Under the pieces are notes generated by a model. It was not told the DNA's origin. It worked only from the letters and a program-made list of their open reading frames with translations, and did not search any database. Shown here piece by piece: positions 2,125 to 58,998 of a DNA stretch of 64,000 bases. Both the position numbers and the translations under genes were made by a program. The stretch's first letter is position 1. The number at the start of each line of letters is the position of its first letter. Source of the DNA: Xiphydria camelus (Eukaryota > Arthropoda > Insecta > Hymenoptera > Xiphydriidae); the NCBI GenBank assembly GCA_963678675.1, contig OY783192.1, positions 13,872,424-13,936,423 on the forward strand, in the 5' to 3' direction.

Positions 2125-2485
2125 ATAAGGCGGTATTCTCGAAACGCAACGGTCTAACGCTTTGCAAGCAGTGGCGTACCTTCAAATTTTCGATGTTATT
2201 TACCAAACATTTCTTCTTTAACGTTTTGGTGAATACTTCACAAACTAATCAACGGATTTGCAGCATTTTCTTTGTCATGAAAAATTAAGTTACGAGAAAT
2301 AAAATGAATAATTTTTATAAGAACTTGTTATAATATTTTAGGTCATTTGTTTTTATTTCTTTTATAACAATTTGTGACAATTCGTTTAGGTAAATTTTAT
2401 TATACAATACAATAATAAACAGACTAGTGCAAAAAGAAGGAATAAACAAGGAAACATTTATTTGAATAACCTAAAACTACAGCCC

Positions 2486-3860: not shown

Positions 3861-4108
3861 TGATTACTTTTAATAAGAAATTAAACTGAAAATTCACAGG
3901 ACGATACACTCACAAAGAAACGCGCTACGTATAAATCGACTGCAAAGCATGGTATGCAAATATTACTACCTGCAATCTGCTACGGTAAACGCTGCACCGC
4001 CAATGTCTCTAACTTGGGGGTCGAATGAGGATAATTCCAAGAAAGTGATGCAGCAGTCTTCTAGGAATTTTGGCTCAACAAATATCGTACCGACTGTATT
4101 TCTCAGGA

Positions 4109-4123
4109 GTTACACACCTGACA
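4109..4123. repeat. Target-site duplication, copy 1, of the R1-clade insertion
   Basis: GTTACACACCTGACA, identical to 8171-8185. The length agrees with the 14-15 bp duplications typical of R1-type integration. Confidence 0.85.
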
Positions 4124-4872
4124 CTAATGAGGCCCGGTGCATGCCCGGTTTTATCGAAGGAGAGGCTACCTGGTGCGTCAGCATATATGCCCCTCCCCTG
4201 ACTCCACTGTTGGAAACGTGCTTGCAACAGCTTCTCGGCCGGCACGTCGATAGTGATTCTAAGCAGGGCCCGTGCTAGCGCCCCCTCAGCAGCCATTGAC
4301 CTGCCGAGAGGTACCAAAATTTGGGGAGTACCTGTGTGAGTGCCATACTCCCCTACCTTTCAGTAGGGTATTTTAGACGTTCTATTGTCAATCAGCTGAA
4401 GACCTTGTGACCCTCCGGCAAATGAGAGTCACAGATTACAAACAGCATGCCATATGGATGTTTACACTGCCACCTCGAGTCCGTCCTAATTCTGAGTGCT
4501 CCCCACAATCTTGGCGTTCGACCACAGCGACATTTTCCGCTGCACGCTATGGTGCAGGGAGGGGCTTTTACTCAGGCCCGAGGTCCAGTTCCGCACGTTT
4601 AAGTTTTCCCGGCATCCTCATGTCACTCAGACGGTTGATATGCCAGGGCATTTGCGTAACCGACGCTGGTTAGGTCGATCGACAAAGCGTAGCTTCGTCT
4701 CCCGGTTGGGGATCACACTCCCCTGCCCCGGTTCGGCACTCGTTATTTAAGTTACGGCTGCGTTAACAACCGCCTCGAGCTATCGAAATCAGCACGAGTA
4801 CCGGTCATCATTCAACTGGCTCTCCAGTGCACCTAAAATACTACTTTTGCAGCGGGCTGTGGAGTCCATATA

Positions 4873-5986
4873 CGTAGGGAGCGCTAAAAGTTATTGACCT
4901 GACATAGAAAGAAGACAGAGAAATAGTAAATATATTATATTTTTCAATGTAATCATCCCTTAAAGCCACACACTTATTACATCGGTGGACAAGTAACTCT
5001 AAACCTTTTAAAAAATATTCAGCCTTTAGAGTCAAAGTGGACCACCACAGCTGCTTTCAGTTCGTCGTTGGTACTAAAACGAAATTCATGTAAAAGCCTT
5101 TTTTAGATCCCGAAATAGGTAATAGTCTGAGGGTGCCATATCCGGGCTGTACGGGGAGTGACTAAGCTGTTCAAAGCCAAGATCCTTTATTATGACTTAC
5201 ACAACTCCGGCTGTGTGCACCAGCGCATTGTCGTATAACAGACACACGCCTTTACTCAGCATTTCTCGACGGTTTTTCTTAATATTTTCCCTGAGTTGTG
5301 TCAAGAGAGTGACATAGTATTGGGCAGAAATGGTGGTGTTATATTCTTTAAAGTCTAGCAACAAACTCCCTTCGGAGTCCCAGGAAACTGTTGCCATTAA
5401 TTTCTTTTCCAAGGCGAACACTTTTGCCTTTTTAAGGGACCCTTCCTCTGGTTTGCGCCACTCCGTGGACTCCATTTTTGAAAGAGGGTCATAATAAAGA
5501 ATCATAGTTTCATCCCCCATTATTATCGATTCCAAAACTTCTTCAGAATTCTGATTATAGAGCCAAAAAAAATCGCGCACACTCTAGTTGCTTTTGAAAT
5601 GCCGAGAGAAGTTTAGGGATCTATCTCGCACTTACTATATTCATCCCCAAATGTTCGTGGAGAATTCTTCGGACAGTTTTTTCGGAATGTCCAGACATTG
5701 CACTTATTTCTTTGACTTTTAAACGTCAGTTACTGAGGACTATTCGTTCCACAAGAGTAATGTTTTCCGAAATTAGCGTGACGAACGGACGACCAGAACG
5801 CTCTTCATCTTCAAGGGATTCGTACCCATAACGAAACTTTTTTGCTCATTCTTTAACAGTTGAATAAGAAGGCGCAGCATCACCATATACACTATCTAAA
5901 TGGCGTTTTATTTCTTGCGGTATTTGCCCTTCTTTTGTCAAAAACTTTATCACCGCCCGATATTCGATTTTCGATACTGTCGACAT
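4873..5986 (-). pseudogene. Mariner transposase, decayed but full length
   Basis: The start at 5986 gives MSTVSKIEYRAVIKFLTKEG, a mariner N-terminal helix-turn-helix, followed by DEERSGRP near 5810. The catalytic region has IIMGDETMILYYDP (first Asp) and MESTEWRKPEEGS, then CLLYDNALVHTAG (second Asp). SPYSPDMAPSDYYLFRDLKK near 5145 gives the third Asp of the mariner D,D34D triad. The C-terminal piece is KAEYFLKGLELLVHRCNKC near 5000. There are in-frame stops near 5848, 5730, 5617, 5190 and 5090. The reading frame continues into the left inverted terminus. Confidence 0.88.
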
Positions 5987-9576: not shown

Positions 9577-10250
9577 CCGTCCCATAGTTTCCAATATCCA
9601 GGTCTTGCACTCCTTAGTTTTCGATGTCAAGATCTTTCTCTCAATAGTCTTCAGTATCAAGGTCTTCTGCCCTATAATTTTCGGTGTCTAAATCCTCTGC
9701 ACCAAAGTTTTCGATACTCAGATCTTTTGCGCCAGTTTTCGGTATTCAGGTCTTCCCGTTCCGTAGTTTTCGACGTTCAGATCCTCCGCTCCATAGTTGT
9801 CGGTGTCCAGGTCTTCTGCTCCATAATTTTCGGTGTCTGGATCTTCCGCCCCATGATTGTCAGCATCCAAATCTTCTACTTCTTAGTTTTCAGTATCCCT
9901 CACTAGATAGTTTTTGATATCCGGGTCTCCCGCTCCATAATTTCCAGTGACCGGGACTTCCGCCACATAGCTGGAGACCTGGACACTGGAAACTATGGCA
10001 CAGAAAACTTGAACACCAAAAACTATGGAGCAGAATACCTGAATGTCGAAAAGTATGAAACAATAAACCTGGACACCGGAAACTATGAAGCAAAAGTTCT
10101 GGACATAGAAAATTATGATGCGGAGGATTTAGACACTGAAAATTATTGGGCGGAAGATCTAAATATCGAAAACTATGGAGCGAAAGACTTTAACACCGGA
10201 AACTATGGTGCGTGGGTAAAGAATGTTGAAAATTTCGGAGCAGGGGAGGA
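9577..10250. repeat. Inverted array of 30-bp repeats, copy A
   Basis: The left half (9577-9960) repeats units like GTTTTCGGTGTCCAGGTCTT plus ten more bases. The right half (9970-10250) holds the reverse complement. On the plus strand the right half reads as an open frame of ten-residue repeats, consensus DTENYGAEDL, with variants such as DIENYDAEDL and NIENYGAKDF. The minus strand of the left half reads the same peptide with interruptions. Units differ by point changes but keep the 30-bp length. Confidence 0.8.
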
Positions 10251-24855: not shown

Positions 24856-26065
24856 AGCGTTGCTTTTTCCAAAAACATTCCCATTTGGAAAATGTAAAAG
24901 GTTTGAAGTCAAAATTCAATGTTGTGTATCAAGGTACATGCTGATAACTACTTCCATGAAAACCATTTTTCTGCTTCACAGTTTCCGGTGTCCACATCTT
25001 CCACACCTTAGTTTTCCATATCAAAGTCTTTCACTGAATATTTTTCAGTGAGTAGGTCTTCCACCCCCTAGTTTTCGGTGTCCAGGTCTTCCGCTCCATA
25101 GTTTTCGGTATCCAGATCTTTTATTTCATAGTTTTCGCTGTCCAGATCTTCCGTTCCATAGTTTTCGGTGTTCAAGTATTCCACTCCATAGTTTCCGGTG
25201 TCCAGGTCTTCCACTCCACAGTTCCCGGTATTCAGGTGTTCCGCTCCACAGTTTTCGCCGTCTAGGTCTTCTACTACAAGGCGAAAGACCTAGACATCGG
25301 AAATTATAGAGTGGAAGACCTGGCCACCGAAATCTATGTAGCGGAAAATCTGAACGTCGAAAGCTATGGAGTAGGAGACCTGGACATCGATCGAAAGATC
25401 TAGACACCGAAGATTATGGAGCGGAAGACCTGGACATCGAGAAATACGGAGCGGAAAACCCAAACACCAAAAACTATGGAGCGGAAGATCTTGATATTGA
25501 AAACTGTAAAGCAGAAGACCTGGATACCGATTGCTATGGATCGGGAGACCTGGACACCGAAACTATGAAGCAGAAGGTCTGGACATCGAAAACTATGGTC
25601 GCAGATCATGAACGATGGAGATTTCAGGACGGAAGACGATGGGTTTAAAAAATTCGCGCTTAATTTCTAGAGAACTTAATTCCAAAAATGTAAACGTCGA
25701 AACCGGTCATACGATTATAAATATTCAATAAAAGTGGTTCTCGTGAAACTAGTGAATACCGTGTATATACACAGGGTTGGATTTTAATGTGAAATATTTG
25801 ACGCTCCAGACAAGATTTTTTCAGAAAATGAAACAATTCAGTTATACTCACACATTTGTACGTCAGATTGTATGCAACAGGCGTAAAGAGCGGAAATTCA
25901 ACCATGGATATCTCGGACTTCCGGTTATGCAAATCGAATTTTCGGTGGCTTGTATTCGCGTTAATAATTATATTACTTTTGTATTATAATATATAACTGT
26001 TATAGGTTAAAACTGAAAGATGCACGCCGGTTTTTGAAATTGGAAGTGGATATTACAAAATTATT
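24856..26065. mobile_element. Palindromic element with 30-bp (decapeptide) repeats, copy B
   Basis: The right end (25660-26065) carries the same terminal sequence as copy A, including TAGGTTAAAACTGAAAGATG and GCACGCCGGTTTTTG. The left flank (24860-24977) is a diverged inverted counterpart of 25660-25800, but the outer left end is missing. The inverted repeat array lies between them. Confidence 0.65.
24978..25640. repeat. Inverted array of 30-bp repeats, copy B
   Basis: Same 30-bp unit as at 9577-10250, again in opposite orientation on the two sides of a centre near 25275. The plus strand of the right half reads DTEDYGAEDL, DIEKYGAENP, NTKNYGAEDL and DIENCKAEDL in one frame from about 25390 to 25555, so unit length and coding phase persist in two copies 15 kb apart. 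Confidence 0.8.
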
Positions 26066-28074: not shown

Positions 28075-29470
28075 ATCAAGAGACACGGTAGTGTCTCGCG
28101 GCATATTCATTCAAGTTCGTCAGAACGACGCCGACAGCGCTGTCGCCGCGAGCGCACCCGTGTCTCTTTACACCACAAATGTCTGCCCCCTCCGCCCCTC
28201 AATTTTTACATCGAATTTTTTCAATAAATATACGGTTATAACCAAAACTATGCTTAGTTACGCCATATAAATTGACTATTCTCTATTGATAGAGACCAGA
28301 ATAAATGTTATAAGTTACATATTAACAGAGATTTTTCCTTAGCAACGCGAAGCCACGCCCCTTGCGCCTAAAAGTCGAGAATCCGATTTCTCGGGCGATA
28401 TATATATATATATATATGTCAAAATCTCACAAAAATTCCGCCTATCTTCGGCGATAGTCGGCCATGCTCGGAAATATGTATACAGATACGGCCACACGCA
28501 TACGCCATCAAATGTATGTGAGAGTGTGTGAGAGAATATATTCCTTAAATGTTTGGGTATTTTCAAAGTTAATAAAATATTTCCATTCGCGAAACGATTC
28601 ACCTCGCGTTTATTTCGATCCTCGGACACGCTTGTTAATAAAATGTAAAAATTCAGTGTAATCGGAGTTATGAATCTCAATAGTGGTGAATGTGACAGAC
28701 GCTCCGTATAGTTTAATAATCGTTTGTTCTTTTTTCAATAATTGAGATAGTGAACGGATGCAGTGCTGTGTTTCGCTGGTTGCCTGTGCATAAAGAGCAG
28801 GAAAAGAGACGGCAGTATCTCACAAGAATTACCATCAGATAAGTTTAATTGCCATCTGACAGCTTTAACCTCACTTTCGATGGAAGGACAATTATCTTAG
28901 TGATAATTCTATTTTTTGTTTCAGCGTCATGCGAGCACGAGACGAATTGATGGCTTTTCTTCTCTGTCACAATCAAAGCCGTGGGAGAAAAATAGGAGAT
29001 GCAATGGAATCGGATCACAACAATCAAGTAATTACAAGTTCCAATTTACACACCGACCTGTCAAACCTGAAGTGTACATGTACCTCACTTCTATTTCATC
29101 TGTTCTTCGTCTCCGTTGTAACGACAGTCAATGAGGAATCACTGATACCGATTAGGGTTCGAGGGTTATTCCTTATTCTTTCTAGCATAGCATCGATATT
29201 TTACTGCACCTGTTTTCTTCTGGGACTTCCTAAAATATTTATAAAAACCCCATATATGATTGTTATTTACAATTTGTTACAGATCGTATGCGAACCCGAG
29301 GGGGTTTCTTTCGAACGAAGGATCATCCACTTGTTGTGTTCCAAGAACCAGTTACATTAGTTCATTTGGCGAGCTGGATCTGCTGTCTCGAGTGCATGGA
29401 CGTGTGCCACTTTAAATGGATATTTTGTAATTTCCATCGTTACATCAGAGGCGAAGAAGAGATGAAATAG
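28075..29470 (+). repeat. Left arm of the 14.9-kb inverted structure
   Basis: Contains a microsatellite (TA)n at 28400-28417, a splice-acceptor-like TTTTTTGTTTCAG at about 28923, and an open frame of 143 codons (28929-29360) with a hydrophobic segment (GLFLILSSIASIFYCTCFLL). The same frame largely survives in the right arm at 41597-42142. I do not recognise the peptide. Confidence 0.7.
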
Positions 29471-29860
29471 AAGTGAGGTACATGTACATTTCACGTTTGA
29501 TAGGTTGGTATATAAATTGGAACTTCTGATAGTATAATAAGAAAGAGGAAATATATCGATAAAAGAAGAATAATAATAAAGTAGTTACTACATTATTGTA
29601 ATCTAATTCCATTGTATCCCTTACTTTTCTGCCACGACTTTGATCGTTGATAGTGAAGAAAAATCAAATTTATTGGTTGATCCATCTACTATCAACAATC
29701 AAAATCGTGGCAGACAAATAAAGGATACAATAGAATTGGATTACAATAATGTAGTAACTACTTTATTATTATTTTTTCTTTATCTATATTATTCAATTTA
29801 TATACCAACCTATCAAACGTGAAGTGTACATGTACCTCACTTCCATTTTATCTCTTCTTC
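29450..29860. repeat. Palindromic module, copy 1
   Basis: A hairpin-like unit whose arms carry GAAATAGAAGTGAGGTACAT and AAGTAGTTACTACATTATTG, and whose centre is ATCGTTGATAGTGAAGAAAA followed by its near inverse. The outer sequence is shared with five other modules in 29-42 kb. Confidence 0.75.
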
Positions 29861-30652
29861 GACTTTGATGTAATGATGGAAATTAAAAAATATCCATTTA
29901 AAGTGGCACACGTCTATGCACTCGATACAGCAGATAAAGTTCGCCGAATTAACTAATGCAACTGGTTCTTGAAACAACAAGTGGATGCTCCCTTGTTCGA
30001 AAGAAATCCCCTCGGGTTCGCATACGATCTGTAACAAATTGTAAATAACATAATCATTTGCAGTTTCACTATTTAAAATATACCGAACTTACTCAACGTA
30101 GAAATTAAGAAACTATATTAATCTAAGTTAACCAATTCTAATGACAGAATTATTAAAAATGATATATTTCATCTTTCGTATTATACTATCACAAGTTCCA
30201 ATTTATATACCGACCTGTCAAACGTGAAGTGTACATGTACCTCACTTCTATTTCATCTCTTCTTCGCCTCTAGTGTAACGATCGAAATTACAAAATATCA
30301 TAACTTTTCTGTAATATTTCTGCAATATTTTACAATATTCGTGAACACTATCGTATGTTAGAAATATATATATCTCGATAGAAATTCGCGAATGTTGCGA
30401 AACATCATAGAAACGTTTCAGTCTCATTACGTCGAAAGATCTCCTCGATAAGGTGCAGCTCGATAAGATTGTACTTGTCAGGGCTGAATTATATAGGGTT
30501 TTTATAATTATTTTAGGAAGTCCCAGAAGAATACAGGTGCAGCAAAATATCGATACTATCCTAGAAAGAATGAGGTATAACCCTTGAACCCTAATCGATA
30601 TCAGTGATTCCTCATTGACCGTCGTTACACCAGAGGCGAAGAAGATAGTACA

Positions 30653-32405
30653 AGATCCGAACTAGAGACGTTCTTCACCGATCTGCTTACCGGATGAAAA
30701 GTATTTTTTATCAAACATAATACGTCAATGAACATATCGCGTATGGGTAGGCTAATAAAATATGCTCAAGACTACCCTTAAAACTATATAAACAGGTGAG
30801 CTGATATGAGCAATTTGCACCGATCTGCTTACCAATTAAACTATATATGAAAATAAAGATAATCTTATTGCAAACACGATGGTATAACCCTACCTGCAAA
30901 AAATCGGTCATGAATCAGGGTTGTAAGGCTTTGAAATTTATCGGAGCTAGCCAAGATGCGCGTACTGCAGGGAAATTTGCTACAGGACGCAACATAGGAA
31001 GTGAGCGCGACGCGACGGTTAGATGAGAGAGAGTGCGTACATGCTGCTTCCTCGTACGATTGACAAAGATAACACTACTAAAATACCGAGAAAAAGCGAC
31101 TACGAGCGACTCGCTGTTTACATCCCTCAGTTTGCGGAAAAATACGTGCTCCCCATTATGACATAAATGTAATGTAGTATCTTTTTCAATCGTTATTTTT
31201 TTCAATCAATTACTGTTGGATCCCTGGTAAAATTATTTTCGTTCAAGATTCAACTAACTTTGCATTTTTATTTTTGGCTGTCTGGAGAAGGGACAATTTA
31301 TTACTTTATGGCTCTTTCTCGAAAGTACAGAAAAAGGGGAAAAACGTTCTTACCGGGTGTTTTCGAGTGAAAGTTTTTTCCGAACATGTGATAAACAGAC
31401 AGTCGAGGCGATGGCTCATGGGGTGGGTTTGTAACGCATTAAAAATATCTGAAGGTAAAGATGAAATTCTAGACTTTTCCTCTAAGTGAGATTTCATAAG
31501 TTGAAATGATAAATTGTTAAGAAAAATTCTTCTTGGAGTCTTTGCGTTGTTTAGGTTACTGTTATATAAAATCTGGGCACTCTCTCTTATTCCAGCAACA
31601 TACAAGTTTTAGGAAGGCTATAATATTGTATTTGTTGTAATATTGTTATAATCTTTGTAAAGATTGTTATTGTATTCATTGTTTTATAATAGAGTTTTTT
31701 ACACCGTCAATTTGTTAATGATTTTTTATCGCTCTCTAAAAAATGTAATTTTTCTGTTTGTTTGCTGTGGTATTTTTATAGAATAGATAAAATTTATCGA
31801 ATAATTATCACTAACATATTATTATTCTGTGATAGAAATATTAATATTTCCCCATCCATATATTTAGTTGAAAATATTTGAAAAATCTTTCACATTTTAA
31901 TATTTTATATTTAATTTAAAGTAATTAAAATTTACTGCCAGTACCTACTCCATTGTAGTCGCTTTTTCTCGGCATTTTAGTAGTGTTATCTTTGTCAATC
32001 GTACGAGGAAGCAGCATGTACGCACTCTCTCTCATCTAACCGTCGCGTCGCGCCCACTTCCTATGTTGCGTCCTGTAGCAAATTTCCCTGCAGTACGCGC
32101 ATCTTGGCTAGCTCCGATAAATTTCAAAGCCTTACAACCCTGATTCATGACCGATTTTTTGCAGGTAGGGTTATACCATCGTGTTTGCAATAAGATTATC
32201 TTTATTTTCATATATAGTTTAATTGGTAAGCAGATCGGTGCAAATTGCTCATATCAGCTCACCTGTTTATATAGTTTTAAGGGTAGTCTTGAGCATATTT
32301 TATTAGCCTACCCATACGCGATATGTTCATTGACGTATTATGTTTGATAAAAAATACTTTTCATCCGGTAAGCAGATCGGTGAAGAACGTCTCTAGTTCG
32401 GATCT
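30653..32405. mobile_element. Inverted pair with 451-bp near-identical arms
   Basis: Arms 30653-31103 and 31955-32405 have equal length and about two mismatches by eye. The ends are AGATCCGAACTAGAGACG. Both arms encode the identical 66-residue open frame (minus strand 30711-30911, plus strand 32147-32347). The identity points to a recent insertion or to gene conversion. The 850-bp centre holds a piggyBac-like C-terminal fragment, so this may be a derivative piggyBac element with long inverted ends. Confidence 0.85.
31306..31605 (-). pseudogene. piggyBac-like transposase, C-terminal fragment
   Basis: Minus strand: an ILYN box, then AKTPRRIFLNNLSFQLMKSH and LEEKSRISSLPSDI. This is the segment that precedes the terminal Cys-rich domain in piggyBac transposases. 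The expected Cys-rich finger is absent or out of frame downstream. The catalytic part is missing. Located between the 451-bp arms. Confidence 0.6.
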
Positions 32406-32794
32406 TAGACTAAGAGATGAAATAGAAGTGAGGTACATGTACACTTCATTTTTAACAGGTCGGTATATAAATTTGAACTTGTGGGATAGTATAATACGAA
32501 AGAGGAAATATATCACTTAATAATTCTGTCATTATTATCTATAGAGTTAGTTAACTCAGGTTAATATAGTTTCTTAATTTCTACGTAGAGTAAGTTGGGT
32601 ATATTTTAAATAGTGAAATACTGTATATAATTGTGTCATTTATAATTTGTTACAGAAATAAACGTACTGGTATCCAATTCTATCCAGAAGGACTGCAAAT
32701 CGAATGCGAACCCGAGGGGGTTTCTTTCGAATGAGGGATCGTCCACTTGTTATTCGAAGAACCAGTAGTACATTCGGTTCCACATTAACCGTCG

Positions 32795-33075
32795 TTACAC
32801 CAGAGGCAAAGAAGAGATGAAATAGAAGTGAGGTACCTACATATACACTTCACGTTTGATAGGTTGGTATATAAATTGGAACTTCTGATAGTATAATACG
32901 AAAGAGGAAATATATCGATAAAGGAAAAATAATAATAAAGTAGTTACTACATTATTGTAATCCAATTCTATTGTATTCCTTACTTTTCTGCCACGACTTT
33001 GATCGCTGATAGTGAAGAAAAATCAAATTTATTAGTTGATCCATCTACTATCAACAATAAAAGTCGTGGTTATTT
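32795..33075. repeat. Palindromic module, copy 2 (one arm truncated)
   Basis: Same left arm and centre as the module at 29450. After the centre (TCTACTATCAACAATAAAAG) the second arm breaks off at about 33070 into sequence shared, in inverse, with 36405-36495 and 37475-37565. Confidence 0.7.
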
Positions 33076-34935
33076 TAAGATTTATTTACGAGTAAGGGCG
33101 AAATTTCAGCGGCGCATGCAAAAGGATTTCTTAAAACTATTCCAACGTCTCGAGTTAATATATGTAACAACATACATATATACTGTCATAAGTGGTATCT
33201 TTACATGTGATGAAACAATTCGTCACGGTTATTGGAAAAGTAAACAGTAGGATGTCCGATGGCAAACTCCAACTTTTGAATTTCCCTGACATTTTGCTGG
33301 ATAGAATTGGTTTCGGGAGAGTGCGCTGCGGTCTTACGAACCGAACGAGAAGTGTCAAACGTCTGATCTCCCAGTAGCTGTCAATTCGGGAGATCGAAGC
33401 GTCTAACCTCGAAATCGGTAATTTATAAATAATAATGCGTAGAAGTGATACGAAATAATCATTCGGGTTTCTTCGATGAGATTCCCTAAGTGTTTAAAAA
33501 TCGGTGTCCGTTTGCCAATAACTGTTACTTCAACTTCCAGATATATTATTAACTATTACTACAGAACGAGTAGGTTAGAAGATTTTCATCAAGATTCACG
33601 CTATCCTAACATGGAATCTCATACAAGTGCAACCGAAGAGGATCTAGCTCGTGTCCTGTCAGTAAAAGGATGACTCGATGGACATCGGAGAATGTCAGGC
33701 TTATCACCGAACGCCTATTACCCACGGTACATGAATTGCAATACGCGCTTCTTGTTTCATTACAGCGTTAAATAACTAACTTCTTTCAAGCTAATAATCT
33801 TTTATGAACTGTTCTTGGTAGGAGGCAGTGATCGATAATAGCAGCTCGCCGTAGACAAGTTCGTCTATTAAAACTGAAAGGCAGTTCGGTTTGCCGAACT
33901 ACTACTCCGATAATGTGCCCGAGTTCGCGGTCTATTCTGCGATTAACGTTAACGTAATCGTGATTATGCTCGGGTGATGGGTATTTCAAAAGAGATAAAG
34001 TATATATTAAAAATCGGACGATGTAAGCTGCAACTGGAACATCATCGCAGAAATAATTTGTCTACAATTAATCACAATCATTGACCGCTTGCTCCAACGA
34101 AAAACAATTCATACAAGGTAAATACTTTGAAAGAAGTGAAAGTTATTTAAAGTAGTAATAGTTGAAATGAAAAGCGCATATTGCAATGAAAGTACCGTGA
34201 GTGATAGGCGCTCGGTGATAAGTTCGACATTGTCTGATCTCCATCGACTCATTTTCTTCGTGATACGACAGGAGTTACATTCTCTCTGTTTGCACCTTAT
34301 GAAAGAGGACATACAAGAAGACCGTCAAAGACTTCATGAAAATCTTGTAACCTACTCGTCCTGTAGTAATACTATCCCTCCGACGGGAATACACGTACAA
34401 GTATACGTGCTAAACGGAGCACGCTGTTGGCACATTATTATTTATAAATTAACGATTTCTAGGTTAGATGCTTCGATCTCCCGAATTGACAGCTACTGGG
34501 AGATCAGACGTTTGACACTTTTCGCTCGGCTCGTAAGACTAATTCTAACTATGAATCACTAGAGGACCGACCCAACTACTTCCTGCCAAATGTCAGGGAA
34601 ATTCAAAAGTTGGAGTATGCCATCGGACATACTGTACTTAGAGAGTTAAAGGTAAAATGTCTACATGAATTTCTGTAGACGACGAAAATATAAGAAAAAT
34701 CCGATGGCCTGTAAATTTGAAAGCGGTATGTTTTATTTCTCCATACTAAGGCAAAGTCCAAAATATAAGGGCTCTCTAGTCTATAAATCCCTTTGAAAAT
34801 GTATAACGAGAATAAATCAAAAGTAACGTGATTATAATTAATTGGCTCGTAGTATAATACGAAAGAGGAAATGGAGATGGTGAAAACGAGCCATACCCAA
34901 GTAGCAAAAGATATCTGTCAGACATACCCCACAAA

Positions 34936-35650
34936 AACAGATTCTCTGTAAAAAAAGGCGGCATGTTCATTCAGTGCCAACAAAAATTGATACGTAAAAT
35001 ACTCTCCAAAAAAGATTTGAAATCAATTAAGATCGCCATGTTCCACATTTATATATAAAAAGTAAAAGGCATCATTTTAAAGGAAAATTATTGTAAATCT
35101 CAAGTTACTAAAAAATTCGACTAAAAGAAGTTATAAAAAAATTTTAATAAACAAGAACTTGCCGCGTTTAAGTTTTCCTATTTTGTCCACTATACCGAAT
35201 AATTGGCAGTGCTTGGACGGTGCTAGAGTGATTCATAAATTGCACTGCCGAAGTTCAATTCAGAGAAATTCAGAAGGCCCCCGCCTGATCGGTTTCCCGT
35301 GCGACATTCGGTATACTGGAGGTATCATATAAGTGTATGAATTTATTTAAAATCATAAGTGCATAAACATCGAGTATAATTCTGTCTGAATTTTTTATTT
35401 TGAAAGAACAAACGCGGCAAGTTCTTTTTTATTAAAATTTTTTTATAACTCCTTTTAGTCGAATTTTTTAGTAACTTGATTTACAATAATTTTCCTTTAA
35501 AATGATGACTTTTACTTTTTATATATAAATCTTGAACATGGCGATCTTAATTGATTTCAAATCTTTTTTGGAGAGTATTTTACGTATCAATTTTTGTTGG
35601 CACTGAATGAACATGCCGCCTTTTTTTACAAAGAATCTGTTTTTGTGGGG
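34936..35650. mobile_element. Palindromic element, first copy
   Basis: Arms of about 300 bp from CAGATTCTCTGTAAAAAAAG to the inverse near 35640, both containing AATTGATACGTAAAATA and AGAACTTGCCGCGTTT. The centre (35190-35320) is a short member of the ACGGGAAACC family (ACCGAATAATTGGCAGTGC to GTGCGACATTCGGTAT). A second, inverted copy is at 44025-44728. Confidence 0.8.
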
Positions 35651-35938
35651 GATTTCACTACTTTTTGGAATTTATTCATGAGGAGAATACGTACATGTAG
35701 AAGAATAGCTTTTTATTACCACAAAATGAAAATCTTCCTTATATTTTTCACTTTGCCTTAGTATTTTGGAGAAATAAAACATATACCGCTTTCGAATTTA
35801 CAGACCATCGGATTTTTCTTATATTTTGGTCGTCTACAGAAATCCATGAAGACGTTTTACCTTCAACTCTAAGTATACTCTTCCAATGACCATGACGAAT
35901 TGTTTCATCACATGTAAAGATACCACTTATGACAGTAT

Positions 35939-36395
35939 ACAGGGTGATTCGAAATGGGCCCACTTCCTCTCGTAGAGAGATTCTTCGCAAAAAACTGAAC
36001 TGAAAGTTCCTGTACAAAATTTTTGTGCTCCGCCTGGTTTACAAGATAATCCAATTCGAAAATATCCAATCCAAAGTCAGATTTAAGGGACAACCAGGGC
36101 CGTGATAACTGGGGCCAACTTCATAAGATTAGTGAGTAAGCATTCTATAGTTAGTCCTATCTGTTTCGCATTCGACTTTATCGCGATACATAATTTGTCT
36201 GTCAGTCTTATGAAGTTGGCCCCAGTTATCATGGCCCTGGTTGTCCCTTGAATCTGACTTTGGATTGGATATTTTCGAACTGGATTATCTTGTAAACTAG
36301 GCGGAGCACAAAAATTTTGTACAGGAACTTTTGGTTCAGTTTTTTGCGAAGAATCTCTCTACGAGAGGAAGTGCGCCTATTTCGAATCACCCTGT
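35939..36395. mobile_element. Foldback MITE of 457 bp
   Basis: Ends ACAGGGTGATTCGAAAT and ATTTCGAATCACCCTGT. Arms of about 190 bp, then a short centre near 36150. The flanking TAT/TATA could be a TA duplication. The arms differ from each other at scattered positions. Confidence 0.85.
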
Positions 36396-36839
36396 ATATG
36401 TTGTTACATATATTAACTCGAGCCATTGGTATAGTTTCAAGAAATCCTTTTGCATGCACCGCTGAAATTTCGCCCCCTTACTCGTAAATAAATTTCCAGC
36501 ACAGCATCGATATTTTGCTGCACCTGCATTCTTCTGGGATGTCCTAAAATAATTATAAAAACCCCATATAGTTCAGCCCTAACAAGTACAATCTTATTGA
36601 GCTGTACCTTATCGAGGAGATCTTTCGACGTAATGATTCTGAAATGCTTCTATGATGTTTTGCAACATTCGCGAATTTATCGAGAAATACCTATATATTA
36701 TGAGTAAAGGAATGTTTCTAACATACGGTAGTGTTCACGAATATTGTAAAATATTGCAGGAATGTTACGGAAAAGTTACTTACAAAAACGTACTTTGCAG
36801 GGTGTAAATGGTGATATTTTGTAATTTCCATCGTTAAAC

Positions 36840-37220
36840 CAGAGGCAAAGAAGAGATTAAATAGAAGTGAGGTACATGTATACTTCACGTTTGACAGGTC
36901 GGTATATAAATTGAAACTTGTGTGATAGTATAATAAGAAAGAGAAAAAACTTATATCGATAATGAAAAAATAATAATAAAGTAGTTACTCCATTATTGTA
37001 ATCCAATAACATTGTGTATCACTTATTTTTCTGCCACGACTTTAATTGCTGATAGTGAAGAAAAATCAAATTTATTAGTTGATCCATCCACTATCAACAA
37101 TCAAAGTCGTGGCAGAAAAATAAGGGATACACAATAGAAATGGATTACAATAATAGAGTAACTACTTTATTATTATTTTTCTTTATCGATATAAGCTTTT
37201 CCTCTTTCGTATGACAGTAT
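36840..37220. repeat. Palindromic module, copy 3
   Basis: Complete hairpin-like module with both arms, centre near 37070 (GCTGATAGTGAAGAAAAATC). Follows a single-arm fragment at 36560-36840. Confidence 0.7.
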
Positions 37221-37702
37221 CTATCGTCCCCTTCCTGCAAAGAGTCACTAACATATTTTGTAAAATTCACCTAACTGGACCTAGTAGCTTAATTTTATTA
37301 AATCTTTAAATGGTAAAACTCACAAAGTGCTAAATGCGTTGGAAGTGAGCATGCGCGCATCATAAAAAGTCATTAACCGAAATATAATACCGATATTATA
37401 GAGCAGAAACTATCTACTAAGTCAGTTGATGATAAATGTTAGTTAGTGACTTTTTGCAGGAAGGGGACGATATGTTGTTACATATATTAACTCGAGACGT
37501 TGGAATAGTTTTAAGAAATCCTTTTGCATGCACCGCTGAAATTTCGCCCCCTTACTCGTAAATAAATTTAATTTAATTATTACCACATCATTTACAGCTT
37601 CGATGCTGACCTTACGACTCATTTCAGTCCGAGTAGAACATTAATTGCAAATATCATCATAAACATGCCAATGCGAATAAAAATCATCTATTAACTGTTG
37701 CA

Positions 37703-37814
37703 GATCAAGTATTCCGTTGTGGTGGGGGTCCTGATTGGTCTACTCGCTAAGATGCGTATACGTTTCTTAGCGAGTAGACCAATCAGGACCCCCACCGCAA
37801 TGGAATACTTGATC
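37703..37814. repeat. Near-perfect hairpin with 53-bp arms
   Basis: GATCAAGTATTCCGTTGTGG pairs with CCGCAATGGAATACTTGATC. The arms continue through GGTCTACTCGCTAAGA and its complement, with a loop of a few bases (GTATAC) near 37759. Few mismatches. Confidence 0.9.
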
Positions 37815-37997
37815 CTGATTGGTCTCTTCGCTGAGTTGCGTGCACGCAAAGATACGAGTGACTCGAGAAAGGCCCCCCTGATTTCCCGGTAGCTGTCAAT
37901 TCGGGAGATCGAAGCATCTATTAACCTCGAAATCAAGTGTACAAGTGATAAGATAATAATTATTCGGGTTTCTTCGGTGAGTTTCCCCAAGTGTTTA

Positions 37998-38310
37998 AAG
38001 CAGTTACTCCATTATTGTAATCCAATTCCATTGTATCCCTTATTTTTCTGCCACGACTTTGATTGTTGATAGTGGATGGATTAGCTAATAAATTTAATTT
38101 TTATTCACTATCAACTATCAAAGTCGTGGCAGAAAAATAAGGGATTCAATGGAATTGGATTACAGTAATGTAGTAACTACTTTATTATTATTTTTTCTTT
38201 ATCGATATAGTCCCTCTTTCGTATTATACTATCCCAAGTTCGAATTTATATACCGACCTGTCAAACGTGAAGTGTACATGTACCTCACCTTTATCTCATT
38301 AAGTATTACT
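37998..38310. repeat. Palindromic module, copy 4 (one arm truncated)
   Basis: Centre near 38090 and complete right arm ending in the TGTACATGTACCTCAC motif. The left arm starts only at the AGTTACTCCATTATTG segment. Confidence 0.7.
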
Positions 38311-39104
38311 GCAGACTCTGACATGTCATCTCATACAGGTGCAACCGAAGAGAACCTAGCTCGTGTCCTGTCCGTAAAAAGATGACTCGATGGACATCGG
38401 AGAATGTCAGACTTGTCACCGAGCGCCTATTACCCACGGTACATTTATTGCAATATGCGCTTTTCGTTTCAATTATTCCTGCTTTAAATAACTTTCACTT
38501 CTTTCAAAGTATTTACCTTGTACAAACTGTTCATCGTAGGGTGCAGCGATCAATGATTGTGACTAATCGTAGACAAATTATTCCTGCAATGATGTTCCAG
38601 TTGCAAAGCATACACTAGCAAGTCAGCTTACAGCATCCGATGGTTAGTATCAACTTTACCTCTTTTGGAACACCCATCACCCGAGCATAATCACGATTAC
38701 GTTAATGTTAATCGCAGAATAGACCGTGAGCTCGGGCACATTATCGCAGTAGTAGTTCGGTACACCGAATTGCCTTTTAGATTTAGTAGATGAACTTGTC
38801 TACGACGAGTCGCTAATATCGATCGCTGCCTCCTACAACGAACAGTTCATAAAAGGTTATTACCTTGAAAGAAGTAAAAGTTATTTAACGCTGGAATAGT
38901 TGAAAGGAGAAACGCGTATTGCAATTAATGCACCGTGGGTAATAGGCGCTCCGTGACAAGCCGGACATTCTCCGATGTCCATCGAGTCATCTTTTTACGG
39001 ACCGGACACGAGCTAGATCATTTTCGGTTGCACCTGTACGAGATGACATGTGAGAAAATCGTGAGTCTTCATGAAAATCTTCTAACGTACTCGTTGTCCA
39101 GTAA

Positions 39105-39540
39105 TACTTAATGAAATAAAAGTGAGGTACATGTACACTTCACGTTTGACAGGTCGGTATATAAATTCGAACTTGGGATAGTATAACACGAAAGAGGAAA
39201 TATATATCGATAAAGAAAAAATAATAATAAAGTAGTTACTACATTACTGTAATCCAATTCCATTGTATCCCTTATTTTTCTGCCGCGACTGATTGTTGAT
39301 AGTGAATAAAAATTAAATTTATTGGCTGATCCATCCACTATCAACAATCAAAGTTGTGGCAGAAAAATAAAGGATACAATAGAATTGGATTACAATAATG
39401 TAGTAACTACTTTCTTATTATTTTTTCTTTATCGATATATTTCCTCTTTCGTATTATACTATCAGAAGTTCCAATTTATATACCGACCTGTCAAGCGTGA
39501 AATGTACATGTACCTCACTTTCATTTCATCTCTTCTTCGC
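39105..39540. repeat. Palindromic module, copy 5
   Basis: Both arms present, centre near 39310 (TTGTTGATAGTGAATAAAAA). Arms end in GTGAGGTACATGTACA and its inverse. Confidence 0.75.
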
Positions 39541-41104
39541 CTCTGGTATAATCATTTACATCCCACAAAGCACGTTTTTGCAAATAACTTTTCTGTAACA
39601 TTCCTGCGATATTTTGCAATATTCGTGAATACTACCGCGTATGTTAGAAATATATATTTCTTGATAAATTCGCGAATGTTGCAAAATATCATAGAAACAT
39701 TTCGGAATCATTACATCGAAATATTTCCTCGATGAGATTGTACTTGTCAGAGCTGAATTACATGGGGTTTTTATAATTATTTTAGGAAGTCCCAGAAGAA
39801 TACAGATGCAGCATAATATAGATCTGTGCTAGAAAGAATAAGGAATAACCTTCGACGAGCATTCGGGCTGTGGCAACAGAGGTTAGAATCAGCAGATCAT
39901 GGCAGGGAGGATATTGAAGGATGGACGCACGTCCATGCACTCGAGGCAGCAGATCTAACCCACCGAATAAACTAATGCAGCTGGTTCTTGGAACAACAAG
40001 TGGACGATCCCTCGTTCAAAAGAAACCCCCTCGGGTTCGCACATGATTTGGAGTCCTTCTGGGTGGAATTCAATAGCAGTACGTTTATTTCTGTAACAAA
40101 TTATAAATAACACAATTATATTCAGTTTTTCACTATTTAAAATATACCCAACTTACTCTACATAGAAATTAAGAAACTATATTAATCTGAGTTAACTAAT
40201 TCTATAGATAATAATGACAGAATTATATTAAAAGTGATATATTTCCTCTTTCGTATTATATTATCACAAGTTCAAATTTATATAATGACCTGTTAAAAGT
40301 GAAGTGTACATGTACCCCTCACTTCTATTTCATCTCTTCTTCAACTCTGGTGTAACGAACGTCAATGAGGAATCACTGATATCGATTAGGGTTCAAGGGT
40401 TATTCCTCATTCTTTCTAGGACAGCATCGATATTTTGCTGCACCTGTATTCTTCTGGGACTTCCTAAAATAATTATAAAAACCCTACATAATTCAGCCCT
40501 GACAAGTACAATCTTATCGAGCTGTACCTTATCGAGGAGATCTTTTGACGTAATGATTCCGAAACGTTTCTATGATGTTTTCCAACATTCGCGAATTTAT
40601 CGAGAAATATATATTTCTAACACATACGGTAGTGTTCACGAATATTGTAAAAAATTGCAGAAATGTTACAGAAAAGTTATGATATTTTCTAATTTCTATC
40701 GTTACACTAGAGGCGAAGAAGAGATGAAATAGAAGTGAGGTACATGTACACTTCACGTTTGGCAGGTCGGTATATAAATTGGAACTTGTGTGTGATAGTA
40801 TAATACGAAAGATGAAATATATAATTTTTAATAATTCTGTCATTAGAATTGGTTAACTCAGATTAATATAGTTTCTTAATTTCTACGTTGAGTAAGTTCG
40901 GTATATTTTAAATAGTGAAACTGCAAATGATTATGTTATTTACAATTTGTTACAGATCGTATGCGAACCCGAGGGGATTTCTTTCGAACAAGGGATCATC
41001 CACTTGTTGCTTCAAGAACCAGTTCCATTAGTTCATTCGGCGAGCTGGATCTGCTGTCTCGAGTGCATGGACGTGTGCCACTTTAAATGGATATTTTGTA
41101 ATTT

Positions 41105-41570
41105 CCATTGTTACATCAGAGGCGAAGAAGAGATGAAATAGAAGTGAGGTACATGTACACTTCACGTTTGATAGGTTGGTATATAAATTGGAACTTCTGA
41201 TAGTATAATAAGAAAAAGGAAACATATCGATAAAAGAAGAAGAATAATAAAGTAGTTACTACATTATTGTAATCTAATTCCATTGTATCCCTTACTTTTC
41301 TGCCACGACTTTGATTGTTGATAGTAGATGGATCAATCAATAAATTTGATTTTTTTCACTATCAACGATCAAAGTCGTGGCAGAAAAGTAAGGGATACAA
41401 TGGAATTAGATTACAATAATGTAGTAACTACTTTATTATTATTTTTCCTTTATCGATATATTTCCTCTTTCGTATTATACTATCAGAAGTTCCAATTTCT
41501 ATACCGACCTATCAAACGTGAAATGTACATGTACCTCACTTCTATTTCATCTCTTCTTCGCCTCTGATGT
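41105..41570. repeat. Palindromic module, copy 6
   Basis: Both arms present, centre near 41340. It overlaps the inner end of the right arm of the 14.9-kb structure, as copy 1 overlaps the left arm, so the outermost module pair is arranged symmetrically. Confidence 0.75.
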
Positions 41571-42975
41571 AACGATGGAAATTACAAAATATCCATTTAA
41601 AGTGGCACACGTCCATGTACAAGAGACAGCAGATCCAGTTTGCCAAATGAACTAATGCAACTGGTTCTTGGAACAGCAAGTGGATGATCCTTCGTTCCAA
41701 AGAAACCCCCTCGGTTTCGCATACGATCTGTAACAAATTGTAAATAACAATCATATGGGGTTTTTATAATTATTTTAGGAAGTCCCAGAAGAAAGCAGGT
41801 GCAGTAAAATATCGATGCTGTGCTACAAAGAATAAGGAATAACCCTCGAACCCTAATCGGTATCAGTGATTCCTCATTGACTGTCGTTACAACGGAGATA
41901 AAGAACAGATGAAATAGAAGTGAGGTACATGTACACTTCAGGTTTGACAGGTCGGTGTGTAAATTGGAACTTGTAATAGTACGAAAGAGGAAATATATCG
42001 ATAGAGAAAAAATAATGATAAAGTAATTACTTGATTGTTGTGATCCAATTCCATTGCATCTCCTATTTTTCTCCCACGGCTTTGATTGTGACAGAGAAGA
42101 AAAGCCATAGATTCGTCTCGTGCTCGCATGACGCTGAAACAAAAAATAGAATTATCACAAAGAGATAATTGTCCTTCCATCGAAAGTGAGGTTAAAGCTG
42201 TCAGATGGCAATTAAACTTATCTGATGGTGATTCTTCTGAGATACTGTCGTCTCCTTTCCTGCTCTTTATGCACAGGCATCCAGAGAAACACAGCACTGC
42301 ATCCGTTCACTATCTCGATTATCGAAAAAAAACAAACGATTATTAAACTATACGGAGCGTCTGTCACATTCACCACTATTGAGATTCATAATTCCGATTA
42401 CACTGAATTTTTACATTTTATTAACAAGCGCGTCCGAGGATCGAAATAAACGCGAGGTTAATCGTTTCGCGAATGGAAATATTTTATTAATTTTGAAAAA
42501 CAACTAAACATTCAAGGAATATATTCTCTCACACACTCTCACATACATTTGATGGCGTATGCGTGTGGCCGAATCTGTGTACATATTTCCGATCATGGCC
42601 GACTATCGCCGAAGGTAGGCGGAATTTTTGTGAGATTTTGACATATATATATCGCCCGAGAAATCGGATTCTCGACTTTTAGGCGCAAGGGGCGTGGCTT
42701 CGCGTTGCTAAGGAAAAATCTCTGTTAATATGTAACTTATAACATTTATTCTGGTCTCTATCAATAGAGAATAGTCAATTTATATGGCGTAACTAAGCAT
42801 AGTTTTGGTTATAACCGTATATTTATTGAGAAAATTCGATGTAAAAATTGAGGGGTGCAGGGGGCAGACATTTGTGGTGTAAAGAGACACGGGTGCTCGC
42901 GACATCAGCGCTGTTGTGTCTGAGTGCGAAACTACTTGAACGAACATGCCGCGAGACACTGCCGTGTCTCTTGAT
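41540..42975 (-). repeat. Right arm of the 14.9-kb inverted structure
   Basis: Inverse of 28075-29470. The minus-strand frame at 41597-42142 contains the same peptide core (SLLFHLFFISVVTTVNEESL) as the left arm but an altered start and end. The indels are consistent with non-coding drift or a decayed gene. Confidence 0.7.
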
Positions 42976-46063: not shown

Positions 46064-46100
46064 ATATGTGATGGGCCCTGTGAAATCATACCAGATGTCG
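46064..46100. repeat. Left terminal inverted repeat of the 3072-bp element
   Basis: 37 bp, identical to the reverse complement of 49099-49135. Beyond it the two ends diverge. Confidence 0.95.
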
Positions 46101-46507
46101 AAAATTTTTTTTTCGGGAAAATGGCAGATTACGATAGAGGAGATTCTGATCTTCAAAAAAAAAATCGAAGCTCTAGCGTTATTACAGCCGGAGAGTTACG
46201 AATTTTTAAAGTTCAAGTACAGAAAATTGTAGTTTCGAGAAAAACGCAGTTAGAGATTACGAAGTGAACAATACACAAAAAAATTAATATCTCGGCTTCT
46301 ATTACTTCAATCGGGTTGAAATTTTGGCATGATGTTCAACGTATATGTACCTAGATATCCTGCAAGTTTCAAGTGCGGACAACGCCTCTACGTGGAGTAA
46401 GACAATGGAGAAGATCAATACAAGAACAACAGAAATGAATTGGTGAAGATGATGCAAAATTTATTTAAACAAATAATAACAGGAATGTGTTGGCGTTCGG
46501 CGCGACG

Positions 46508-48705
46508 TTAGCAACCAGAAGAGTCTTCCTGTAGGCGTTTTGGAGGACGACCTCTCCGTTTCTTTGGCTGCATTTGTGCAGGAGCGTCCATGGCAGGTGG
46601 GTCATCGACATCGTCCTCCATTTCAGTCTCGTCAACCAGGCGTTTTGGAGGACGACCTCTTGGTTTCTTCGGCTGCATTTGTGCAGGAGCGGGACACAAG
46701 ACGTTTTTTGTTTCTTCAGAACAAAATGGGCGGATTTTATCATAGAGGTACTGTTGACGTTCGCAAGGTAATCCAGTAGATTTGACCTCTTCGAGGATCA
46801 CGTCATCTGCGCATTCGAGATTACCAATGAAGAACGATTGTGCTTCTCCATCAAGCGTCGTTTTACATGTGACCCAGCCTGGTTTTTCCTTAGTGAACTC
46901 AAAGTGATAGAACGATGATATGAGTGGAATCTTGCCCCAGTGGAGACGATCAAAGTAGTCTTGCCAGGCATGGAATGGTATGTGCAGTGTTTGCCCAGCT
47001 TCGTCACTTACTACTACGCTTTGATTTACGTGAGATTCAGGTGTGCTTTGCCGAACCACTTCTGCTACGTCGTCCACAGTCTCCGCAGGTGTATATCGGA
47101 ACTTGCGTTTGAACAGTCCGAAGGCCCAGTCGCAACTAAACCGCGTATGGCCGACGGGCATGAACGAGAGTACAATACGATCATTCAGCGATTTTAGAAT
47201 ACGCCAATTCAAATACGCCATTATTGTTCGATTTTTGTTTTGCCAACAACAATTATCAGCATGGAGATACAGTATCCTTTCACCGGTCGAGAACGAGTCG
47301 AGAGCATGATGGATCATACTCACAATGAAACTGGAACCTTTGGCAACGCTGGCAGCTTCTGGGATCAGATAATTGTATTGATGCTGGTAGGTGTCGTTCA
47401 TTATCCCGAAAATGTTTATTTTATAACCGCAAAGGAAATATATCGGTCCAGGTTGCAGAGGCTGATGTGGGATTGACACAAGCTGCGCCATATCAAACGA
47501 CCAATGCACGGCACGAGTATCCAAATTCGGCTCCTGCGACCCGCTCGCAACGTCAGTGACGTTTCTCATTTCTCGCGTGTTCTTAATTGTCGTATTGTAG
47601 AAATTGCGCTCTTCATTGACACGCGCCATGTGTCTGTTCATCTTCTCTAACTTTTCTTCTTTCTCTGTATCCGAAAGCATGGAACGAGCTTGGGTATTCG
47701 CAAAATGACGATGGCAAAAATGACACATATCGCTTTGTGGTTGTTGAACGATTATTTCTGGACAGTGCTTTCTCCACAACCTACGGAATGTCTTCAAACT
47801 CACTGGCTCAGTACCATTCGCTGTACAGCTTTCTGTGTAGCACGTGGCATGAATTGTGCTTTTTCGGTCCGACGTCGGCAGCAATCCATTCGTCCAGGGA
47901 GGAAAACGGCATTATTTTCAGCGTAATTCTGAATGAAAGCGACAACAGACTTTCTATTTTCCAGCGTTAACGAATGTTTTGGTTTCCGAGCAACATTACC
48001 GTGCACTGAATCAACAACACCTTCATCCAGGTACAAACATTTGAGTCGTCGATATCGTACATTCGACATAGTATGGGCGAACAAAAACGTCTTTTCGCAA
48101 ACATTGAAGCCTTTCAATTTAAACCCGATACGTACATTACGTCGTTCTTCATTCGGTTTTTTCGACCGGTGTGTGAAATCGCTTGTTGATAATAATGACC
48201 GGATTTGGCCGAGTAGCAACAAGTCCAGTTTATTCGTGTGATTTTCGTAGTAGTCGAGTGCTGCACTATCAGCTCTCATGTCTCTCAACGCGTACACCGT
48301 GAACAGCTCGGAACAAGCCGTCTTATTTGGACCATGCTTACAGCCACACGTAGCAGTACAGAACGCACGAATACGCGCTAACTCCGGATCGGTATCTTCA
48401 GTTGTCGCCGTATCTCCGCTGACCATTTGAACATTTCGATACCCTTGCACGCATCCAAATGATGTTTCCGCATCATCCGCGTCATCTGCTTCCATAGGTA
48501 TTTCCTCATCGGACGCATACTCGTCATCCTAAATTCAGAGAATACTATACTGTCTGTTTCACAGTCAGGTATCACGTTAATAAACACAGTTTCTATTACG
48601 TACCTCTGATGCTCCTTCCGATTGTGAATCGTCCTCAGTGCGATTAAAATGCTCGTTTAATACGTCCGTGATGGCCGGATCGGCGAACGGACATACATTT
48701 GCCAT
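46508..48705 (-). CDS. DUF7869-like candidate DDD transposase, spliced, one frameshift
   Basis: Exon 1 (48705-48604, 34 codons) starts MANVCPFADPAITDVLNEHF. A 75-bp intron has GTACGT and TTTAG borders and is phase 0. Exon 2 (48528-46508) starts DDEYASDEEIP. The N-terminal part has CTATCGCKHGPNKTACSELF and LYLDEGVVDSVHG. Near 47890 the frame shifts by one base (PGRMD to LLPTSDRKS). Next come a possible zinc motif (MCHFCHRHF) and VHWSFDMAQ with the first candidate Asp. LYLHADNCCWQNKNR gives the second, and VGHTRFSCDWAFGLFKRKF the third. Counted in the 458-codon downstream frame these are D131, D210 and D252. The C-terminus has two AT-hooks (PRGRPPKR and RRGRPPKR) in a duplicated segment. Family name and nuclease role are from memory and inference. 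The inverted termini make a transposase role likely. The single frameshift may be a mutation, a sequencing error or programmed. Confidence 0.75.
48529..48603 (-). other. Intron of the DUF7869-like gene
   Basis: 75 bp. Donor GAG followed by GTACGTAATAG, acceptor CTCTGAATTTAG before GATGACGAG. Removal joins two acidic segments in phase 0, giving SEGASE followed by DDEYASDEE. The size is typical of short insect introns. Confidence 0.75.
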
Positions 48706-49098
48706 CACTTCGGTTATCAATGAACACACGTGTAAGAAACTTTTTTATTTCGGTTTTCACCACGCTCAGACCTCGCTCAGTCAGCGATCGCACACCAACC
48801 GAACGATGATAGTTGCTACGCAACGGCACGAAGCAGTGGAAGTATAATACGGTGAAAGAATGTTCCCCTCCACCTATACACAACCTTACTAAGGAACGTG
48901 CGACATCTGGTATGTTTTCTGCAGAGCGACTACCGAACACGTTTTCGTTCCTACACTGCCAATTTCACCTCGTTTGACTACTTTTTTCATCGGCACATGG
49001 TTGCCAAACATGTCTAGCACTCAAATCCATCGAAATCCGAAAATCGAATTTTTCAAGTTCAGATCGCGTTTTGGGCTCTAGCGCAAAATTTACTTTTC

Positions 49099-49135
49099 CG
49101 ACATCTGGTATGATTTCACAGGGCCCATCACATAT
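49099..49135. repeat. Right terminal inverted repeat of the 3072-bp element
   Basis: 37 bp, identical to the reverse complement of 46064-46100. Confidence 0.95.
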
Positions 49136-57699: not shown

Positions 57700-58998
57700 G
57701 CTACTGCGCATACTATTCGCGCAAGCTGGATTATCTCAACGGGAAAACATTTTAGAGAAAAATGTTTAATACAAAACTTTAAGGATTTTCCCTTGGCTAC
57801 CCAGTGGTCGTATTGGATTTGACCTTGACCGTGACCCTTAAGGTAATATCAAATGCCTTCCTAAACCGTTCATCCGATTGCGATGAAACTTTGGGGAATG
57901 GTTGGACGCATGCCCGCGAAGGTTTCTGAGTTAGTAAATCTTATACAGGGTGTTCAAAAAGTACCGGTACGGATGATTATTATGCCTTCCTAAACCGTTC
58001 ATCCTATTGCGATGAAACTTTGGGGAATGGTTGGACGCATGCCCGCGAAGGTTTCTGAGTTAGTAAATCTTATAAAAGGTGTTCAAAAAGTACCGGTACT
58101 GATGATTATTATGCCTTCCTAAACCGTTCATCCGATTGCGATGAAAAGTTGGGGAATGGTTGGACGCATGCCCGCGAAGGTTTCTGAGTTAGTAAATCTT
58201 ATACAGGGTGTTCAAAAAGTACCGGTACGGATGATTATTATGCCTTCCTAAACCGTTCATCCGATTGCGATGACAATTTAGGGAACAGCTGGACGCATAT
58301 CCGCGAAGGTTTGAGTTAGTAAATCTTATACTGGGTGTTCAAAAAGTACCGGTACGGATGATTATTATGCCTTCCTAAACCGTTCATCCGATTGCGATGA
58401 AACTTTGGGGAATGGTTGGATGCATGCCCGCGAAGGTTTCTGAGTTAGTAAATCTTATAAAAGGTGTTCAAAAAGTACCGGTACTGATGATTATTATGCC
58501 TTCCCAAACCGTTCATCCGATTACGATGAAAAGTTGGGAAATGGTTGGACGCATGCCCGCGAAGGTTTCTGAGTTAGTAAATCTTATACAGGGTGTTCAA
58601 AAAGTACCGGTACTGATGATTATTATGCCTTCCTAAACCGTTCATCCGATTGCGATGAAAATTTGGGGAACAGTTGGACGCATGCCCGCGAAGGTTTCTG
58701 AGTTAGTAAATCTTATACAGGGTGTTCAAAAAGTCGAACTATAGTTGACCTAAATTTGACCTCCGCTGACAATAAAGGTAACATGAAAAAAATGGTCAAT
58801 GACACATTTGAACGTGAAAAAAAATTAATTTGACCTTGATATAACCTTGAAGGTCATGGTCAAGGTCAAATCCAATATGACCATTGCGTAGCCCGGGAAA
58901 AATACTAAAAGTTTTGTATTAAAAATGTATTTAAACAATGGTGGACGGACAAAATCAATCCACAATCTACCCGTGCGAAGCCGGGACGGACTGCTAGT
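57700..58998 (+). mobile_element. Probable non-autonomous Helitron (3' end)
   Basis: Ends at 58998 with a hairpin CCCGTGCGAAGCCGGG and then ACGGACTGCTAGT, matching the stem-loop plus CTRRT signature of Helitron 3' ends. The 5' TC end is uncertain. Inner segments 57741-57850 and 58830-58950 are inverted to each other (GTATTGGATTTGACCTTGAC and inverse) around a tandem array. The base after the end is A rather than the usual T. Confidence 0.6.
57855..58740 (+). repeat. 129-bp tandem array, seven units
   Basis: Units start GCCTTCCTAAACCGTTCATC at 57855, 57984, 58113, 58242, 58369, 58498 and 58627 (period 129, once 127), each ending with a GTTCAAAAAGTACCGGTAC segment except the last. Units are about 95% alike. 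Each contains TACAGGGTGTTCAAAAAGT, and an open frame crosses unit borders because 129 is a multiple of three. I do not consider it a gene. Confidence 0.9.

Follow-up and report, generated by a model that had tools for sequence, protein, structure and literature searches.

Introduction

The Sola superfamily of DNA transposons was reportedly defined by Bao et al. in 2009 to comprise several groups that share very little identity with one another. In the published descriptions, Sola elements have an enzyme with three catalytic aspartates (DDD), a 4-bp target duplication, a length of mostly 2-9 kb and inverted repeats of 11-1124 bp (PMC10741241), and the subgroups are distinct from one another (PMC4455052). 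Sola2 is described with AT-rich AWWT duplications, ATAT, AAAT and ATTT among them (PMC3627910). Here we describe an element found in a 64,000-bp stretch of the genome of the hymenopteran Xiphydria camelus (assembly GCA_963678675.1, contig OY783192.1, positions 13,872,424 to 13,936,423 of the forward strand; hereafter the window). The element encloses a gene for a protein with DUF7869 (PF25273), a Pfam domain of unknown function. We concluded that positions 46064-49135 of the window hold a cut-and-paste DNA transposon with a probable DDE/D transposase, which would carry out excision and insertion.

Termini, target duplication and copies of the element

The window has an inverted repeat of 41 nt with one mismatch (46064-46104 and 49095-49135, 98% complementary). 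A reading of the window made from its sequence only had proposed a DNA transposon between 37-bp perfect inverted termini and had suggested a genome search with the terminus. The host genome (357 Mb in 38 contigs) was searched with the first 101 bases from 46064. Since 40 of the 51 candidates were scored, the match count is a lower bound: at least 40 matches were found, 25 to nearly the whole query and 15 to its first 41 bases alone. Both ends were recognised in 21 of the 25 left-end matches after repeat fetches were removed. Outside these 21 were C10:28373882 (L038, L046) and C21:5566942 (L028, L030), of which the right end was not recognised; C17:7715599 and C24:11363316 were left out as well. 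Two partial copies were also left outside the count, one with the left end only (L032) and one with no end recognised in the stretch examined (L041).

All 21 two-ended copies start with GTGAT and end with ATCAC, and each is flanked by identical 4-bp sequences: ATAT in 17 copies, AAAT in two, ATTT in one and AACT in one. Because copies are flanked by ATTT, AAAT and AACT, the outer ATAT in the window is the target duplication and not the terminus; ATAT is its own reverse complement, and in the window it therefore resembles part of the terminal repeat. The AACT case, which lies outside any AT run and is not its own reverse complement, fixed the length of the duplication at 4 bp. The inverted termini of the sequence-only reading were thus real, but their outer 4 bp belong to the target duplication and the perfect repeat is 33 bp long. 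The transposon proper spans 46068-49131 (3064 bp).

Eleven of the 21 copies were 404 bp long, eight were 3064-3088 bp, one was 2891 bp and one was 9535 bp. The eight copies of 3064-3088 bp are spread over four contigs and hold the same gene between the same inverted repeats, as the sequence-only reading had asked of the termini. This confirmed that the element is a DNA transposon, and the copies across the genome excluded chance as the source of the pattern in the window. The longest copy (L021), with 9.5 kb between both ends and ATAT flanks, probably contains a further insertion.

Unoccupied relatives of the target site were found for three copies, L008, L025 and L031. The joined flanks of L008 found a match at window 23603-23400 (91.7%), where ATAT stands once, and those of L025 matched an inverted neighbour from the same locus (98.9%), in which ATTT stands once. 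The joined flanks of L031 matched 11 repeat stretches of the window (79-94%), ten with one AACT and one with one AATT; several of these matches overlap because the repeat also matches itself inverted. Many copies of this repeat lie in several stretches of window 29443-42089, where they are the unoccupied relatives of the L031 target. L010 lies in an AT microsatellite and was not clean, and the weaker matches spanning the sites of L004 and L027 were left out.

The gene product and its predicted fold

The gene is predicted to be spliced (Table 1). Its 467-residue frame, on which the residues of the window protein are numbered here, matched DUF7869 in Pfam with 1e-19 over residues 164-297. A sequence search against solved structures gave no match up to E 1, and the best match of a profile search had only E 0.15. 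AlphaFold2 predicted an RNase-H-like order, in which D140, D219 and D261 take the positions of the DDE/D catalytic acids. A structure comparison was run on two predicted models, and retroviral integrases and Mos1 were the best matches. From the secondary-structure order and the fold match, D140, D219 and D261 are at the catalytic positions of the predicted RNase-H-like fold. These are the three conserved acidic positions already noticed from the sequence as 131, 210 and 252, with the numbering shifted by 9, and the predicted models bear out the RNase-H order expected for them. The two AT-hooks noticed at the same time were found again as RGRP motifs at the C-terminus; the Pfam AT_hook family had no match on the window protein and matched two of 50 aligned sequences.

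The core is shared with the Mos1 mariner transposase and retroviral integrases, and Mos1 aligns also over the N-terminal helical region of a full-length relative (residues 82-505). However, identity in the aligned parts is at most 16%, and the whole-length alignment with Mos1 has a root-mean-square deviation near 16 Å, so that domain placement differs.

With E <= 0.001 as the threshold, 208 relatives of the window protein were found, and 199 of L067, a protein of a second group described below; residue counts and names rest on the best 120 of the 208 and the best 120 of the 199. Of the 120 relatives listed for the window protein, aspartate was kept at D140 in 116 (the other four having gaps), at D219 in 119 and at D261, the third acid of the triad, in 117. 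H255 was histidine in 120/120 and E185 glutamate in 118/120, and all five residues are kept in both group 2 proteins. E185 (window 47357-47359) is a fourth conserved acid, directly ahead of helix 1. Its place resembles that of the extra glutamate used by ribonuclease H1.

Most of the listed relatives had no name, and the others were called hypothetical, uncharacterized, unnamed or DUF7869. No transposase label was visible among the source names of the listed relatives, long names being partly visible. One beetle relative bears the name of an RNA-polymerase subunit, which we took as a misnomer. Named hosts were a leafhopper, a sponge, a fish, aphids, a mirid bug and beetles, with Homalodisca, Halichondria, Coilia and Diorhabda included.

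Table 1. Positions of the element's parts in the window.
Feature	Position	Strand	Basis
Target-site duplication ATAT, left	46064..46067		identical flanks in 21/21 two-ended copies; single in unoccupied relatives of three target sites
Left terminal inverted repeat, 33 bp perfect, begins GTGATGGGCCC	46068..46100	+	inverted-repeat comparison
Transposase exon 2, frame broken by 25-bp gap	46508..48528	-	frame and comparison with seven full-length copies
AT-hook-like motif 2, KKRRGRPPKR	46535..46564	-	sequence
AT-hook-like motif 1, KKPRGRPPKR	46640..46669	-	sequence
Predicted RNase-H-like catalytic core, residues 131-295 of 467-residue frame; D140, D219, D261	47027..47521	-	model and relatives
Intron, 75 bp, GT-AG, predicted	48529..48603	-	splicing inferred from sequence
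Transposase exon 1, 34 codons, predicted ATG at 48705	48604..48705	-	predicted
Subterminal repeat CATACCAGATGTCG, exact third copy of the inner part of the inverted repeat	48901..48914	-	sequence
Right terminal inverted repeat, 33 bp	49099..49131	-	inverted-repeat comparison
Target-site duplication ATAT, right	49132..49135		flank comparison of copies

To judge by its sequence, the subterminal repeat could possibly be a second enzyme-binding site; it is missing in L014, the one 404-bp derivative examined for it.

DUF7869 beyond this element

The window protein had 93 matches in the host genome, some of them pieces of one gene, with identity down to 23%. Thirteen divergent loci, 29-40% identical to the window protein, were chosen from them (L054-L063, L069-L071). 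Inverted ends starting with GTGA and identical ATAT flanks were found in seven of the 13 (L056, L057, L058, L059, L061, L062, L071). GTGA inverted repeats with non-matching flanks were found in two (L054, L060), and the ends were not found in the remaining four (L055, L063, L069, L070). To gauge chance, the flanks of eight of the 13 loci were shuffled in 3-mer blocks, and such ends were reached in 0-3 of 200 shuffles per locus. The seven loci represent fewer independent families, because the ends of L056-L058 and L062 resemble one another, and so do those of L061 and L071. Still, they tie the domain, and not just one copy, to GTGA-ended elements with a 4-bp duplication. DUF7869 proteins of this type are most probably transposases, and that of the window is most probably a DDD transposase, as the sequence-only reading had proposed.

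In a tree of 50 rows, in which part of the 13 divergent loci were included, the window's group was separated from group 2 with support 100/100. Group 2 is a second, distant group of DUF7869 transposons (L067, about 2451-5119, and L068). Its element seems to start near GAAGACC... and to have flanks like AATT, with CATT as one flank of L067; the signal was too weak to claim. An inverted repeat of 58 bp (GGGCCGG...), flanked by a 3-bp duplication of TTA, was rejected as the terminus of group 2, since a comparison between L067 and L068 pointed to a repeat that surrounds the element. Termini like this repeat were also seen near L012.

Three DUF7869 relatives (L064, L065, L066) were found on prokaryote genome contigs of 3.3-4.6 kb, filed as a Nitrospirales metagenome-assembled genome, a Thiomargarita strain and a Cycloclasticus symbiont of a sponge. 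They are probably eukaryotic carry-over and were not taken as evidence of a bacterial origin.

Defective copies and probable spread in trans

The seven full-length copies other than that of the window are 99.1-99.8% identical to one another and 98.8-99.2% identical to the window copy, gaps left out. The 404-bp form, as seen in L014, joins 66 bp from one end to 338 bp from the opposite end, and its 338-bp piece is 99.7% identical to the full-length copy L012. Ungapped identities of the 404-bp copies (79-100%) were set aside because small shifts blur them.

The sequence-only reading had called the element near-intact with one apparent frameshift. Compared with the seven other full-length copies, this frameshift is a 25-bp gap in exon 2, and with 25 bp of coding sequence missing, near-intact was too generous. 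At one shared codon of the catalytic region, each of the seven other copies has a stop (of one kind in six copies and of another kind in the seventh) that is missing from the window copy; a 4-bp stretch of the window copy is in turn absent from all seven. L031, a shorter element, has an open frame of 551 residues in which the three acid blocks are all present. The whole gene was open in none of the copies examined.

The window copy is a recently mobile but broken, dead element. Because the copies are dead yet nearly identical, it was probably the enzyme of another copy that moved the seven other full-length copies and the 404-bp derivatives in trans.

Probable assignment to Sola2 and alternative readings

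Judged by published descriptions, we consider with good confidence that the element is a class II cut-and-paste DNA transposon of the Sola superfamily, most probably of group Sola2. We infer this name because the DDD enzyme, the size, the inverted repeats and the AWWT duplications agree with the published features. The length of 3064 bp and the 33-bp inverted repeat are inside the Sola ranges given in PMC10741241, and the same holds for the features shared with Sola2 as far as PMC3627910 and PMC10741241 describe them: the AWWT duplication, the DDD enzyme, terminal inverted repeats and a length of 2-9 kb. AWWT fits 20 of the 21 target sites; the one AACT duplication departs from the Sola2 rule. 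The proteins also differ in length, the Sola2 enzyme of Dictyostelium having 888 amino acids in the published description and the nearest full-length DUF7869 relative 682, with AT-hooks.

The transposase would be made up of two predicted N-terminal helical regions (helix-turn-helix-like), a Cys/His block, the RNase-H-like core and a tail with AT-hooks. The GTGA... inverted ends would be its binding sites, and it would cut the element out using metal ions held by D140/D219/D261. Insertion with a 4-bp stagger at A-W-W-T sites would then produce the duplication.

The sequence-only reading had instead taken such proteins as transposases of their own superfamily. DUF7869 elements would then stand apart from Sola2 and from every other listed group and fall into two deep groups, of which the window's has GTGA termini and AWWT targets; E185 would possibly be a fourth active-site acid. 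The full support for the two deep groups speaks for such a separation, as do the lack of any transposase family above the Pfam cutoff for the DUF7869 protein and the lack of any paper found that mentions DUF7869, PF25273 or IPR057191. However, several very dissimilar groups, as Sola is said to comprise, would accommodate DUF7869 elements, and the DDD enzyme, the size, the inverted repeats and the 4-bp AWWT duplications, ATAT, AAAT and ATTT included, agree with the published features of Sola2. We therefore regard a separate superfamily as unlikely.

Less probable still is membership in another known superfamily, for example as a distant relative of Zator/TP36 or mariner. Mos1 was among the best folds, and the Pfam family DDE_Tnp_ISAZ013 (PF07592), which we take to be a TP36/Zator relative, matched weakly in six of 50 sequences, spanning the second and third acid in the three sequences examined. 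These three scored 13.1, 12.1 and 13.4 bits against a family cutoff of 26.9, and the third acid of the DUF7869 protein is D, which sets it apart from DDE_Tnp_ISAZ013 and from Mos1 alike. The 4-bp AWWT duplication, with its unoccupied relatives of target sites, is neither TA nor 3 bp. The ATTT, AAAT and AACT flanks ruled out the 2-bp TA duplication of Tc1/mariner, and Zator, which duplicates 3 bp, was ruled out by the 4-bp length. Kolobok and Sola3 duplicate TTAA. The same duplication is given for piggyBac in PMC5199201, and all three were rejected with TTAA in 0/21 copies.

That a host gene, a domesticated transposase, merely lies between inverted repeats has next to no probability and is refuted by the copies at the window locus: predicted splicing and AT-hooks, the latter common in host chromatin proteins, would suit it, but the gene occurs between the same ends at a number of unlinked sites, its full-length copies, as far as seen, are broken, and deletion derivatives exist.

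Other repeats in the window

The window also contains 30-bp tandem repeats at 9582-10207 and 24980-25598, in opposite orientations. Two of four arrays of the 30-bp repeat have an open frame that reads as a degenerate repeat of 10 residues, similar to EDLDTENYGA. A satellite-like tandem array with a 129-bp unit in about seven copies was found at 57853-58734.

Significance

A literature search of titles and abstract starts for DUF7869, PF25273, IPR057191 and peptide motifs found no relevant paper, and DUF7869 as a transposase domain appears to be absent from the literature searched. The best reading is that the element is a new family of a known kind, in a group described in 2009. The host genome is a useful resource, with its nearly identical defective copies, its deletion derivatives and the unoccupied relatives of target sites. 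With this analysis, a Pfam domain that had no known function and is seen in insects, a sponge and a fish gains one. As DUF7869 of this type is most probably a transposase domain, genes predicted with it are best regarded as genes of transposons until the contrary is shown.
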